Assembly (NCBI RefSeq): GCF_030815405.1
Contig: NZ_JAUSWX010000001.1
Span: forward strand, 4,092,001-4,156,000
Source: Agromyces albus
Lineage (GTDB): Bacteria; Actinomycetota; Actinomycetes; Actinomycetales; Microbacteriaceae
DNA: 64,000 nt
Direction of reading: 5' to 3'
Shown piece by piece: positions 40,436 to 54,510 of the stretch (positions are counted from its first letter, which is position 1; the number at the start of each line of letters is the position of its first letter). The notes below the pieces were generated by a model, which did no database searches, was not told the DNA's origin, and worked only from the letters and a program-made list of their open reading frames with translations. Position numbers and translations under genes: made by a program.

Positions 40436-41242
40436 ATGACCGACCGCCTGACCGGAAAGACCGCACTCGTCACGGGCGCAGCCTCGGGAATCGGGCGGCA
40501 GGTCGCGCTGCGATTCCTGGGCGAGGGCGCGCGCGTCGTGTTCGCCGACCGCGATGAAGCGGCGCTCGCCACGGTCGTGGCCGGGCTCGGCGAGGGAGCC
40601 GACGGAGGCGGGGCGGCCGGGGGAGCCGGGGCGGCCCGGGGCGTCGTCATGGACATCTCCGACGAGGCATCCGTCGAGGCGGCGATGGCATTGCTCGCGG
40701 CCGACGGCTGGAGCCCGAACGTCGTCGTCGCGAACGCCGGCGTGCAGTTGTTCGGCCACGATGCCAAAGCCGGCGACCTCGACCTCGAGGTCTGGCGCCG
40801 CACGATCGACGTCAACCTCACGGGAACCTTCCTCACCGTGAAGCACGCGGTGCGGGCGATGCTCGCGCGCGACGGCGGTGGAGGCGGCGGCTCGATCATC
40901 CTCACCGGCAGTCCCACCGGGGTGCGCGGGGAGGGCGACGTCTTCACCGCCTACAGCACGTCGAAGGCCGGCATCCACGGGCTCGGGCGCACCGTCGCCG
41001 CGGCCTACGCGCGCGACGGCATCCGCGTCAACACCGTCATCCCCGCGTACACCGAGACGCCGCTCGTCTCCACGCTCACGGGCGATGACGACGCGCGCAC
41101 GGCGATCGTCAGTCGCATCCCGATGGGCCGCGCGGGCTCGGCGGCCGATGTCGAGGGCATCATGGTCTACCTCGCGAGCGACGAGAGCGCGTTCGCGACG
41201 GGCGCCGCGTTCGCCGTCGACGGCGGGATGTCGAGCCTGTGA
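40436..41242 (+). CDS. SDR-family dehydrogenase (candidate D-apiose 1-dehydrogenase)
   Basis: This classical SDR of 268 residues has the cofactor motif TGAASGIGR (residues 14-22), the NAG segment, a catalytic Ser in ILTGSPTG and the YSTSK Tyr/Lys near residue 180. A Gly/Ala-rich low-complexity insert occurs near residue 60. GAAGGGG precedes the ATG; a TTG five codons upstream is less likely. Its stop overlaps the apionolactonase start (GTGA). A sugar 1-dehydrogenase feeding a lactone to a lactonase is the natural reading, so oxidation of D-apiose to D-apionolactone is proposed. Described apiose dehydrogenases are of the Gfo/Idh type, so this would be a different family (inference). Confidence 0.75.
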   Translation: MTDRLTGKTALVTGAASGIGRQVALRFLGEGARVVFADRDEAALATVVAGLGEGADGGGAAGGAGAARGVVMDISDEASVEAAMALLAADGWSPNVVVANAGVQLFGHDAKAGDLDLEVWRRTIDVNLTGTFLTVKHAVRAMLARDGGGGGGSIILTGSPTGVRGEGDVFTAYSTSKAGIHGLGRTVAAAYARDGIRVNTVIPAYTETPLVSTLTGDDDARTAIVSRIPMGRAGSAADVEGIMVYLASDESAFATGAAFAVDGGMSSL

Positions 41243-43086
41243 CCCGCGAGAGCTGGGCCGCGCGCGAGCGGGCCTGGGGTGACCACGAACCCGAGCCCAT
41301 GCCGTTCACCGTCGGCCCATGGCGGTTCGAACTCCGGGGAGACGAACTCGCCGACCTGACCTTCGACGGCACACCCGTCGTGCGCAGCGTGCGCGCCGTC
41401 GCGCGCGACCGGGACTGGGCCACCGTGCCGGCCAGTGTCGAGTCGGTCGGCGAGCGTGACGACGGCCTCGATCTCAAGTTCGCGCTCCGTGGCCTGGGAG
41501 CCGATATCGCGGCTGCGATCGTGGTTCGCGCCGACGACGCCCGTTTCGCGGTGCGGCTCGTGGCGACGTCTCGCGTCGAGTTCCTGAGCAACCGGTTCGG
41601 CCTCATCGTGCTCCATCCGCCCGTCGTGGCGGGCGCGGACCTGACGATCGCCACGGCGAGCGGCGGCATCCGCAACACCGCCTTTCCTGTGGAGGTCGCG
41701 CCGCATCAGCCGGCCATGGACATCCGTTCGCTCGCGTGGACCCACGACGGCGTCGTGACGACGGCGACGTTCGCGGGCGACGTGTTCGAGATGGAGGACC
41801 AGCGCAACTGGACCGACGCCTCGTTCAAAACGTACAGCACGCCCCTCGCACGCCCGTTCCCCGTCGCGATCCCGGCGGGTGCCGTGATCGAGCAGTCGGT
41901 CGAGTTCGAGTCGACGCGAGTGGAGCAGCGCCGGGTGACGGATGCCGCGACGGGCGCCGATCGGATCATCGAGTTCGACGAGACCGACCACCGCGTGCCC
42001 ACCCTGACTCTGGGCGCCTCTACCGTGCCCGACGCCGCGTTCTCGGCAAACGGCCTGCCCGCCGGCGTCGCCGGGCTCCTCGTCGAGCTCGACACCCGGT
42101 CGCCGTCGTGGCGCGCGGCGCTCGATCGCGCTGCCGTGGAGGCGGGCGGGCTGCCGCTCGACGTGCGCATCACAGCCGACGACCCGGCCTCCGTGCACGA
42201 AGCGGTCGTCGTCGCCGCGGCATCCGGCGCCGTCTCCCGCATCGGCGTCTTCGGCGGTCGCGGGCACGTCACCGAGCCCGAACTGTGGGATGCCCTCACG
42301 GATGCCGCGCGCACGAGCCTGCCCGAAGCCGAACTCATCGGCGGCGCGCGTTCGCACTTCACGGAACTCAACCGGCAGCATCACGAGCTGCCGGCGGACC
42401 TCCAGGGCATCACGTTCGCGATGACGCCGCAGATGCACGCGACGGAGCGCGCCCAGCTCGTCGAGTCCGTGGCGATGCAGGCGACGGTCGTGCGAGATGC
42501 GGTGCGGATCGCCGATGGGCGACCGTTGCACGTGGGGCCGATCACGTTGCGATCGCGCTTCAACGCGGTGGCGACGAGCGGAGGCGGAGCCCGCCTCGCG
42601 ACGGCTGCGGCGCTCGCCGAGGGCTATGGCGCCGAGGTCGTCGAGGGTGCGACGGACCCCCGCCAGGCATCCGTCGCGCTGGAGGCCTGGACGGTCGCGA
42701 GCTTCGCGGCGATCTGCGCGGGCGCCGTCGCCGGCGCCGGCGCAGGAACCGCTACCGACACCGGCAACAGCACAGGCTTGGTCGCGAGCGTCGACTACTT
42801 CGAGTCGGTCGGGCCCCGAGGCATCCGCGACGCAGCCGGCCCGTTCCCCGTGGCGCGCGCGATCGAGGAGATCGCCTCGATCGCCGGCACCAGGTTGCTC
42901 ACGCCGCGGGGCGCAACGCCCGACGGCATCTGGATCGTCGGCGGAGCGCGGCCCGACGGCTCATGGCGCGTGCTCGTGGCGAGCCTCGCCGACCGGACCG
43001 TTGCGCTCCGCATTCCCCACGGCGGACGTGAACGCCACCTCATCGTGGCCCCCTTCGAGGTCGCGGTGCTCGACTCGCAGGGCTGA
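41239..43086 (+). CDS. apnL: probable D-apionolactonase
   Basis: This protein of 615 residues, in length and overall style, matches the large D-apionate lactonases described with apionate pathways, which open D-apionolactone to D-apionate. Recognisable features are an N-terminal beta-rich half (PMPFTVGPWRFELRGDELADL) and a C-terminal half with GGARSHFTELNRQ and VGPITLRSRFN. No signal peptide is seen. The GTG start overlaps the dehydrogenase stop. The assignment rests on resemblance plus the five other matching pathway genes nearby; catalytic residues were not identified. Confidence 0.72.
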   Translation: MTRESWAARERAWGDHEPEPMPFTVGPWRFELRGDELADLTFDGTPVVRSVRAVARDRDWATVPASVESVGERDDGLDLKFALRGLGADIAAAIVVRADDARFAVRLVATSRVEFLSNRFGLIVLHPPVVAGADLTIATASGGIRNTAFPVEVAPHQPAMDIRSLAWTHDGVVTTATFAGDVFEMEDQRNWTDASFKTYSTPLARPFPVAIPAGAVIEQSVEFESTRVEQRRVTDAATGADRIIEFDETDHRVPTLTLGASTVPDAAFSANGLPAGVAGLLVELDTRSPSWRAALDRAAVEAGGLPLDVRITADDPASVHEAVVVAAASGAVSRIGVFGGRGHVTEPELWDALTDAARTSLPEAELIGGARSHFTELNRQHHELPADLQGITFAMTPQMHATERAQLVESVAMQATVVRDAVRIADGRPLHVGPITLRSRFNAVATSGGGARLATAAALAEGYGAEVVEGATDPRQASVALEAWTVASFAAICAGAVAGAGAGTATDTGNSTGLVASVDYFESVGPRGIRDAAGPFPVARAIEEIASIAGTRLLTPRGATPDGIWIVGGARPDGSWRVLVASLADRTVALRIPHGGRERHLIVAPFEVAVLDSQG

Positions 43087-43108
43087 TCGCCTCGCAGGGC
43101 TGATCGAC

Positions 43109-53479: not shown

Positions 53480-53504
53480 GGGCGCCGGCCGTCGGCCGGT
53501 GCCC
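53480..53504 (+). terminator. intra-operon hairpin before the binding-protein gene
   Basis: GGGCGCCGGCC and GGCCGGTGCCC pair over 11 bp (one G-T) with a three-base loop, 31 bases before the binding-protein gene. It probably protects or separates the binding-protein mRNA. Confidence 0.6.
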
Positions 53505-53535
53505 GTTAGTGAAACACCCGATCGAAAGGCAAGAC

Positions 53536-54510
53536 ATGCGACGCAGGATCATCGCGGCTGCTGCGGCCACACTCACGGCACTGGCGCTGGCGGGCTGTTC
53601 GTCTCCCAGCGGAGCGGATGGCGGTACTGGCGGAGACGGTGAGGCGGGCGGGCTCATCGCGATCATCACGCCATCTCACGACAACCCGTTCTTCAAGGCG
53701 GAGGCGGATGCGGCCCAGGCCGAGGCCGAGAAGCTGGGATACGAGACATCCGTCGCATCTCACGACGACGACCCGAACAAGCAGAGCGAACTCATCGACG
53801 CGGCCATCAGCAACGGCGCAAAGGCGATCATCCTCGACAATGCCGGCGCCGACGCCTCGATCGGTCCGGTGCAGAAGGCCGAGGATGCCGGCATCCCCGT
53901 CTTCCTGATCGATCGTGAGATCAACGAGACCGGCATCGCGAAGGCGCAGATCGTCGCCAACAACGCGCAGGGTGCGGCAGCGGTCGCCGAGGAGTTCGTC
54001 GCGGCACTTCCGAATGGCGGCAAGTACCTCGAGCTCACCGGCAAGGAGTCCGACACGAATGCGGGCGTTCGTTCCGAGGCGTTCGCGAGCGTCATCTCCC
54101 AGTACCCGAACCTGACCCAGGTCGCGAAGGAGACCGCCAACTGGAGCCAGGATGAGGCGTTCAGCAAGATCGAGACGCTGCTGCAGCGTGATCCCGATGT
54201 CCAGGGCATCATCGCGGGCAACGACACGATGGCGCTCGGCGCCGTCGCTGCGGTCGAGGCCGCGGGACTCACCGGCAAGGTCGTCATCGCCGGCTTCGAC
54301 GGGAGCCCTGATGCAGTGGCGGCCATCGCCGACGGCAAGCTCCTCGCCACCGGATTGCAGCCGGCCGTGCTGATCTCGCAGCTCGCCGTGCAGCAGGCCG
54401 ACCGGTTCATCACGACCGGCGAGACCGGCGAAGACGAGAAGCAGTCCATCGACTGCATCGTGATCAACGCCGACAACGCGGGTTCCTACACGCTGTTCGC
54501 GATCGAGTAG
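53536..54510 (+). CDS. CUT2 sugar-binding lipoprotein (apiose importer candidate)
   Basis: This ribose-binding-protein-like lipoprotein has 324 residues. Its lipobox is LAGC with Cys21 after a basic N-terminus, then a Gly/Asp linker. The Peripla_BP_4 segments [26 protein letters not shown] and [10 protein letters not shown] are clear. GAAAGGC precedes the ATG; an in-frame GTG at 53509 overlaps the hairpin and is less likely. The mature sequence is typical of pentose and related monosaccharide binders. It closes the operon before a terminator. Confidence 0.88.

Follow-up and report, generated by a model that had tools for sequence, protein, structure and literature searches.

A predicted D-apiose utilization locus in Agromyces albus and related actinobacteria

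We describe a predicted sugar-utilization locus at positions 40436-54510 of a 64,000-nucleotide stretch (hereafter, the window) of the single-contig, 4.27 Mb genome of Agromyces albus. A preliminary annotation made from the sequence alone (the sequence-only reading) had proposed that genes of this locus form a complete route from D-apiose to D-erythrose 4-phosphate. In this report, we examine the genes, their conservation, their regulatory sites and their relation to known apiose loci.

Genes and layout of the locus

Gene boundaries were derived from lists of open reading frames, their translations and a codon-usage gene caller. The locus comprises 12 plus-strand genes and one divergent gene. 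Pfam scans and open reading frames recovered, within 40436-54510, every gene named in the sequence-only reading.

40436..41242, plus strand: classical short-chain dehydrogenase/reductase (SDR; PF13561/PF00106), the proposed D-apiose 1-dehydrogenase
41239..43086, plus strand: ApnL-like D-apionolactonase of a distant clade (NF049900, 203 bits)
43109..43867 or 43873, minus strand: GntR/FCD regulator, NanR-like (PF07729, PF00392), the probable cassette regulator
44046..45437, plus strand: major facilitator superfamily (MFS) carrier of sugar-acid type (PF07690), a possible apionate importer
45434..47188, plus strand: DhaK-DhaL fusion (PF02733 and PF02734), predicted L-erythrulose kinase (LerK role)
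47181..47651, plus strand: RpiB-family isomerase (PF02502), predicted DerI/EryI role
47651..48430, plus strand: triosephosphate isomerase (TIM)-family isomerase (PF00121), predicted LerI role
48427..49221, plus strand: xylose-isomerase-fold protein (PF01261), predicted 3-oxoisoapionate decarboxylase (OiaC role)
49218..50087, plus strand: PGDH_C-family protein (PF16896), predicted D-apionate oxidoisomerase (ApnO role)
50137..50787, plus strand: DUF2291 predicted lipoprotein (PF10054), an importer partner that adjoins the importer in Rhizobium etli and Shinella too
50784..52346, plus strand: sugar ATP-binding cassette (ABC) ATPase of CUT2 type, with two PF00005 domains (46% identical to its R. 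etli p42f counterpart)
52343..53473, plus strand: sugar ABC permease of CUT2 type (PF02653; 56% identical to its R. etli p42f counterpart)
53509 (or 53536)..54510, plus strand: sugar-binding protein of the R. etli RHE_PF00037 type (62% identical to RHE_PF00037)

Eight of the 11 junctions between plus-strand genes overlap, by 1-8 bases, which agrees with the earlier statement that start and stop codons mostly overlap. The other three are the gap after ApnL (43087-44045), 49 bases 5' of the DUF2291 gene, and 35-62 bases 5' of the binding-protein gene. The first gap contains the divergent GntR/FCD gene, which the sequence-only reading had missed. Because this gene lies between ApnL and MFS, the locus must consist of at least two transcription units, namely SDR-ApnL and a second unit extending from the MFS gene to the binding-protein gene.

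Conservation in genomes and ApnL loci

We searched 60 genomes, including that of A. albus itself. ApnO is matched in 25 of them at E<=0.001, and we call ApnO-bearing the 10 in which the match is full-length and at least 67% identical; the best E-values of the other 15 are 5e-7 or weaker. The genes for GntR, DhaKL, RpiB, TIM, OiaC and ApnO occur together in all 10 ApnO-bearing genomes (in one, the block is split over two contigs). This conservation rules out chance clustering, which the sequence-only reading had called unlikely. A strong ApnL match was found in six of the 60 genomes, all six ApnO-bearing; a seventh genome has a weak match (33%) and was left out of this count. SDR homologues (E<=1e-70) occur in the same six genomes, and SDR and ApnL are adjacent in each. 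In many genomes the SDR candidates outnumbered those scored (43 at most), and a negative result for the SDR is therefore less secure than a positive one.

A second set was assembled by profile search of genome contigs with an alignment of the Agromyces ApnL, from which the best 80 of 531 confirmed places were taken as named loci. A few of these share a genome or species, and one of the 60 genomes, that of Agromyces sp. ISL-38, appears again as L072. Because 19 of the 80 stretches are shorter than 21.3 kb, gene counts in this set are lower bounds. ApnO is accompanied by OiaC in at least 58 loci; these two occur with DhaKL, RpiB and TIM in at least 45, and all five with the SDR in at least 39. 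An SDR of at least 50% identity lies within 2.5 kb of ApnL in 68 of the 80.

Operator-like sites and regulators

The regulatory features considered here, besides the GntR gene, are as follows.

39352..40356, plus strand: LacI-family regulator 5' of the SDR gene (PF00356, PF13377), a possible second regulator
40398..40405: operator-like core AACCGGTT, 30 bases 5' of the SDR start codon
43921..43942: palindromic operator-like site ATTGGTCAACCGGTTTGCCAAT between the GntR and MFS genes, a 22-base imperfect palindrome with AACCGGTT at its center

The core AACCGGTT occurs five times in the window, against 0.23 expected; the three occurrences beyond the SDR and GntR-MFS sites fall inside predicted genes. 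The 13-mer TGGTCAACCGGTT is found once in the 4.27 Mb genome, at the GntR-MFS site. It is present in 13 of the 60 genomes, comprising all 10 ApnO-bearing genomes and three of the 50 others (Fisher p 3.8e-9, with genome relatedness ignored). In the latter three, the 2-3 kb around the site contains no match to any pathway query, and we therefore rejected these sites as regulon members. Two ApnO-bearing genomes carry the SDR-ApnL pair 431 and 397 kb from the cassette, and in both the 13-mer stands directly before the SDR gene. Across the 80 named loci, 109 occurrences of AACCGGTT were counted where a first-order model predicts 7.8, and for 93 of them the matched start of GntR, SDR, MFS, DhaKL, ApnL, OiaC or DUF2291 follows within 350 bases. 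Four loci (L078, L079, L108 and L140) have an importer operon with its own AACCGGTT site before DUF2291.

The sequence-only reading had placed all these genes in one regulon, and this idea gains support from operator-like sites that are common to both operons even when these are about 400 kb apart. A single regulon defined by the AACCGGTT-centered site thus likely includes the erythrulose cassette and SDR-ApnL, joined in four loci by the importer. GntR is the likely reader of these sites, because its gene adjoins the cassette in 10 of 10 ApnO-bearing genomes. The LacI-family protein is a possible alternative reader: close homologues (72-98%) lie beside the cassette in seven of the nine ApnO-bearing relatives, and AACCGGTT also suits LacI operators.

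The GntR-MFS gap also contains, at 43951-43988, a perfect 12-base inverted repeat with a 14-base loop (DNA fold z -5.6) that is nearly unchanged in the two closest relatives.

Enzymes of the erythrulose and apionate cassette

The cassette proteins are generally compared here with those of R. etli plasmid p42f and of plasmid-borne cassettes in Erwinia sp. E602 and Pantoea sp. At-9b. The DhaK part of the fusion is 71% identical to its Erwinia counterpart, 46% to R. etli DhaK and 41% to each of two other Dak1 proteins of the A. albus genome. For RpiB, the figures are 47% (Erwinia), 41-42% (R. etli) and 32% (own paralogue), and for TIM they are 52% (Erwinia), 39% (R. etli) and 37% (own housekeeping TIM). 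The genome has a further TIM gene and a further RpiB gene, each more than 2 Mb from its counterpart in the locus. We rejected the view that the TIM and RpiB genes of the locus are the housekeeping copies, given these separate copies and the closer similarity to cassette relatives than to own paralogues. In a sequence search of PDB, the best match of TIM is 3s6d, a "putative triosephosphate isomerase", and the fourth is an L-erythrulose-1-phosphate isomerase (11ef).

ApnO is 59-60% identical to the Pantoea and Erwinia proteins and 42% to the R. etli protein of the OiaX locus, and it matches PDB 5t57 at E 4.8e-63. OiaC is 51% and 47% identical to the Erwinia and Pantoea cassette proteins, respectively, and has no NCBIfam match. 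Among 120 listed homologues of OiaC, six (70-83% identical) have been named 3-oxoisoapionate decarboxylase by JGI, and the others bear general names (TIM barrel protein or sugar phosphate isomerase/epimerase, for example); the predicted membership in the OiaC family derives solely from the annotation of these six relatives.

Dehydrogenase and lactonase

The SDR scores below the cut-off of every NCBIfam model listed among its matches, and its 120 listed homologues are named only generically or as 3-oxoacyl-ACP reductase. We looked for the apiose dehydrogenase of R. etli, a Gfo/Idh/MocA protein (ApsD), and found no match at E<=1e-25 in the A. albus genome or in any of the 10 ApnO-bearing genomes; on this basis we rejected the idea that A. 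albus encodes an ApsD of R. etli type outside the locus. At the same threshold, three of the 60 genomes contain matches, with 28-29% identity.

The ApnL-like protein shares a core with rhizobial ApnL. Across 55 sequences of its own type, 58 positions that are at least 95% conserved are identical in the R. etli and Shinella proteins, including E184, E186, D187, R189, D193, K197, E376, H400, D473 and R475. Its structure model (mean predicted local distance difference test score, 92) contains a glycosidase-like barrel. The protein has no Pfam match in the copy searched; its relatives carry the newer precomputed Pfam domains PF25837 and PF25838. For both the ApnL-like and OiaC proteins, PDB contains no sequence match at E<=0.001. 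In one relative (G016), a TGA within the ApnL match might suggest a broken gene; we rejected this, as the TGA is the gene's own stop codon.

Proposed pathway

In the route that we propose, apiosidase-like (PF13204) and rhamnosidase enzymes would release apiose from plant glycosides or pectin. Apiose would then enter through the ABC importer, and apionate perhaps through the MFS carrier. The SDR would oxidize apiose to apionolactone, probably with NAD+, since the second strand of its nucleotide fold is followed by Asp, a usual mark of NAD+-dependent enzymes. The ApnL-like protein would open the lactone ring to yield apionate, ApnO would convert apionate by oxidation and rearrangement to 3-oxo-isoapionate, and OiaC would decarboxylate the latter to L-erythrulose. 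Phosphorylation of erythrulose by DhaK-DhaL would be followed by a shift of the ketone, catalyzed by the TIM-type enzyme, to give D-erythrulose 4-phosphate, which the RpiB-type enzyme would convert to D-erythrose 4-phosphate. Both operons would probably be governed by GntR through the AACCGGTT-centered sites.

The gene families, their order, their conserved neighbors and the shared operator-like sites are observations; the enzyme activities, substrates and induction of the locus are predicted from them. On this evidence we consider it very probable that this is an inducible D-apiose utilization locus, a variant of the oxidative pathway in which a classical SDR stands in for the Gfo/Idh/MocA-type apiose dehydrogenase. 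Such a non-orthologous replacement of the dehydrogenase is probable. Eleven of the 12 genes, all but the SDR, have a counterpart in R. etli p42f or in the Erwinia and Pantoea cassettes. The sequence-only reading's complete route to erythrose 4-phosphate thus stands insofar as a gene of the right family is present for each step and has relatives in apiose-type loci; its completeness depends on the proposed role of the SDR.

If the assignment is correct, it provides a substrate for a group of SDRs with generic or 3-oxoacyl-ACP reductase names, it extends oxidative apiose degradation to many actinobacteria (those represented by the 39 or more named loci with five core enzymes and an adjacent SDR), and it supplies a concrete operator-like site with which the claim can be tested.

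Relation to known apiose loci

Carter et al. reportedly described the apiose pathway in 2018, including the R. etli CFN 42 p42f locus with RHE_PF00037. The RuBisCO-like enzymes of Carter et al. 2018 are described briefly in another paper (PMC6302742), and a further one (PMC10176493) cites the study. As annotated, the p42f locus contains genes for a NanR-like regulator, OiaX, a four-carbon-acid sugar kinase, TIM, RpiB, a PGDH_C protein, a binding protein, DUF2291, an ATPase, a permease, a Gfo/Idh/MocA oxidoreductase, a long hypothetical protein that scores as ApnL, and DhaK/DhaL. OiaK, ApnO, ApsD, LerI and DerI are labels used for genes of this locus. The ABC importer with DUF2291, the ApnL and ApnO families, DhaK/DhaL, the TIM- and RpiB-type isomerases and the NanR-like regulator are common to R. 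etli and Agromyces. In place of the Agromyces OiaC, SDR and DhaK-DhaL fusion, R. etli has, respectively, OiaX with a four-carbon-acid sugar kinase, a Gfo/Idh/MocA dehydrogenase, and separate DhaK and DhaL genes; its ApnL, moreover, scores above the NCBI cut-off, whereas that of Agromyces falls below.

BLASTP identities to the p42f proteins are 62% for the binding protein, 56% for the permease, 46% for the ATPase and for DhaK, and 42% for ApnO; weaker values were obtained for TIM (39%), DUF2291 (33%), DhaL (33%), ApnL (29%) and GntR (29%). The R. etli OiaX, kinase and Gfo/Idh/MocA proteins have no match among the window proteins compared, and the SDR has no match in the p42f locus.

The Erwinia and Pantoea plasmids share the gene order MFS-DhaKL-TIM-OiaC-ApnO, with 46-70% identity (tblastn) and RpiB nearby. 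Their RpiB gene is divergent, whereas in Agromyces it lies between DhaKL and TIM, and their regulator is annotated as a "sugar-binding transcriptional regulator" instead of GntR. In Pantoea sp. At-9b (L005 11622-18379), genes for an ABC sugar transporter and an SMP-30/gluconolactonase adjoin the cassette, with SMP-30 in the place of ApnL.

According to PMC11747546, the apiose cluster of Rhodobacteraceae strain LCG007 also has ApnL, apiose dehydrogenase and ApnO, and growth of this strain on D-apiose is reported. Clusters of Pectobacterium and E. coli ST131 likewise have apiose as substrate, with growth on apiose reported, but use another route via apiose isomerase, in whose place two putative oxidoreductases are hypothesized for Escherichia (PMC13001218). 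Among the matches listed from the open-access literature, we found no actinobacterial apiose pathway, although the SDR role may still be published.

The joining of two routes that the sequence-only reading had inferred is therefore supported but not new: p42f already has an oxidative route, via OiaX and the kinase. The pathway itself, judged from gene content, is known and partly annotated, because the p42f locus, the Erwinia and Pantoea cassettes and the JGI names for OiaC precede this work. By the same measure, its actinobacterial variant is real and widespread. The new elements are the apiose dehydrogenase role proposed for the SDR, a clade of lactonases apart from the rhizobial one, and a regulon defined by its operator.

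In Arthrobacter sp. EpRS71 (L138), the stretch that holds the OiaC cassette also contains matches to R. etli OiaX (40%) and to the R. etli kinase (33%), located about 7 kb from the SDR. The OiaX and OiaC branches may coexist in this organism.

Conflicting evidence and alternative explanations

Several observations weigh against the assignment as an apiose locus. The first concern family membership. The ApnL-like protein reaches only 203 bits against the cut-off of 750 of NF049900 (the D-apionate lactonase ApnL equivalog), a cut-off that R. etli ApnL (1050 bits) and Shinella ApnL (814 bits) exceed. RpiB scores 153 bits against the cut-off of 240 of NF051858 (D-erythrulose-4-phosphate isomerase DerI), which the R. 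etli protein passes with 258 bits, and it exceeds the cut-off of TIGR02133, the "RPI_actino" ribose-5-phosphate isomerase.

Second, 26 polar positions are conserved in the Agromyces clade of ApnL and different in both rhizobial proteins, so that the substrate of this clade may differ from that of rhizobial ApnL. The conserved polar residues of the barrel include R371, H373 and E522. One could speculate that Actinobacteria evolved a second, independent apiose front end, consisting of an SDR 1-dehydrogenase and its own lactonase clade on a glycoside-hydrolase-like scaffold. Since ring closure of apiose can involve either of its two equivalent CH2OH groups, SDR-ApnL may act on the furanose and lactone diastereomers that rhizobial ApsD-ApnL does not use, both pairs yielding the same apionate. 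We regard this extended proposal as rather doubtful.

Third, the SDR is not constant. A nearby SDR is missing in 12 of the 80 ApnL loci, and the SDR-ApnL pair is missing from four of the 10 ApnO-bearing genomes (G001, G011, G023 and G059). In one of the 12, Humibacter sp. RRB41 (L093), a 30-residue frame directly 5' of ApnL is similar to the SDR C terminus, which suggests that the SDR has been lost there. None of the 80 loci contains a match to R. etli ApsD at E<=1e-8, but these were chosen by similarity to the Agromyces ApnL, and the absence is uninformative for other ApnL clades.

Fourth, the transport genes vary. The locus of Agromyces sp. ISL-38 (L037 13815-14130) has no MFS match among otherwise conserved neighbors, and the carrier may therefore be dispensable. 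The binding protein is a close sequence and fold match to the RHE_PF00037 type, for which structure 5ibq is reportedly a complex with apiose. The title of PDB 4ry0, however, calls RHE_PF00037 a ribose-transporter binding protein. Just eight of the 80 ApnL loci have a match to the binding protein, six of them with identities of at least 50%. Among the eight, the proteins of L101 and L103 have an altered pocket motif, VNAE instead of IDRE, which suggests that they take another ligand.

Such absences lend themselves to a different explanation, in which the cassette would degrade apionate or apionolactone imported by the MFS carrier, and SDR-ApnL would serve another plant sugar of the same regulon. 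Besides the four genomes without SDR-ApnL and the clade-specific residues of ApnL, this would fit the lack of any SDR or ApnL match within 18.8 kb around the Erwinia and Pantoea cassettes. It would also fit the resemblance of the MFS protein to sugar-acid carriers: it scores 278 bits with TIGR00893 (under the cut-off of 395) and is 68-70% identical to the MFS proteins of the Erwinia and Pantoea cassettes. Nevertheless, the operator is common to SDR-ApnL and the cassette even when these are unlinked, ApnO is present in all six genomes in which ApnL is strongly matched, and the importer belongs to the type found in the R. etli apiose locus, with the operator core at its operon in the four loci noted above. 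We therefore judge this explanation unlikely.

Alternatively, the apiose dehydrogenase might be not the SDR but an NAD-epimerase-type protein encoded at 35147-36022, which elsewhere is paired with an SMP-30 lactonase. Orthologues (at least 65%) occur in six relatives, all ApnO-bearing. In G011, one of the genomes without SDR-ApnL, this gene and one for an SMP-30 lactonase are transcribed divergently, and a AACCGGTT site separates them; SMP-30 genes adjoin the epimerase-type gene in G001 and G016 as well. Against this, the neighbor of ApnL in 68 of the 80 loci is the SDR, whereas matches to the epimerase-type protein are found in 16 of the 80 stretches; two genomes, Agromyces sp. ISL-38 and G005, have SDR-ApnL and no ortholog of 35147-36022 above 51%; and the PDB matches of the protein are weak and to epimerases. 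We find this candidate quite improbable as the dehydrogenase of the locus. Such pairs of SMP-30 and NAD-epimerase-type genes (L038:4361-6293, beside the cassette in G011; also L039:4245-6022 and L040:14052-15850) are candidates for an alternative front end.

That the locus serves erythritol or erythrulose only, with incidental apionate genes, is an idea we rejected as having next to no likelihood, since ApnO and OiaC sit with the erythrulose enzymes in all 10 ApnO-bearing genomes, Erwinia and Pantoea, even though one TIM match is an L-erythrulose-1-phosphate isomerase and the last three enzymes are common to tetritol pathways.

Surrounding plant-sugar genes

Two genes upstream of the proposed apiose locus encode glycosidases of the kinds invoked above.

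32626..34167, minus strand: apiosidase-like glycosidase (PF13204, DUF5060 and DUF5605)
36625..39228, plus strand: alpha-L-rhamnosidase of Rha78A type (PF17389, PF08531, PF05592, PF17390)

An alpha-L-rhamnosidase gene lies beside the cassette in seven of the 10 ApnO-bearing genomes, A. albus included. Among the 80 ApnL loci, rhamnosidase-like genes occur in at least 15 and apiosidase-like homologues in at least 24, the latter with 32-62% identity (11 at 50% or more). A second apiosidase-like (PF13204) gene of A. albus (G000:C1:4068347-4069114) lies about 23 kb upstream of the window.

Further plant-sugar genes occupy 5234-26575. They comprise a GH106 rhamnosidase match barely over its cut-off at 5234-9268; kinase, aldolase-dehydrogenase and RhaA-like genes at 14483-20159; and a sugar ABC transporter at 21858-26575, of which the ATPase, one permease and the binding protein were scanned.

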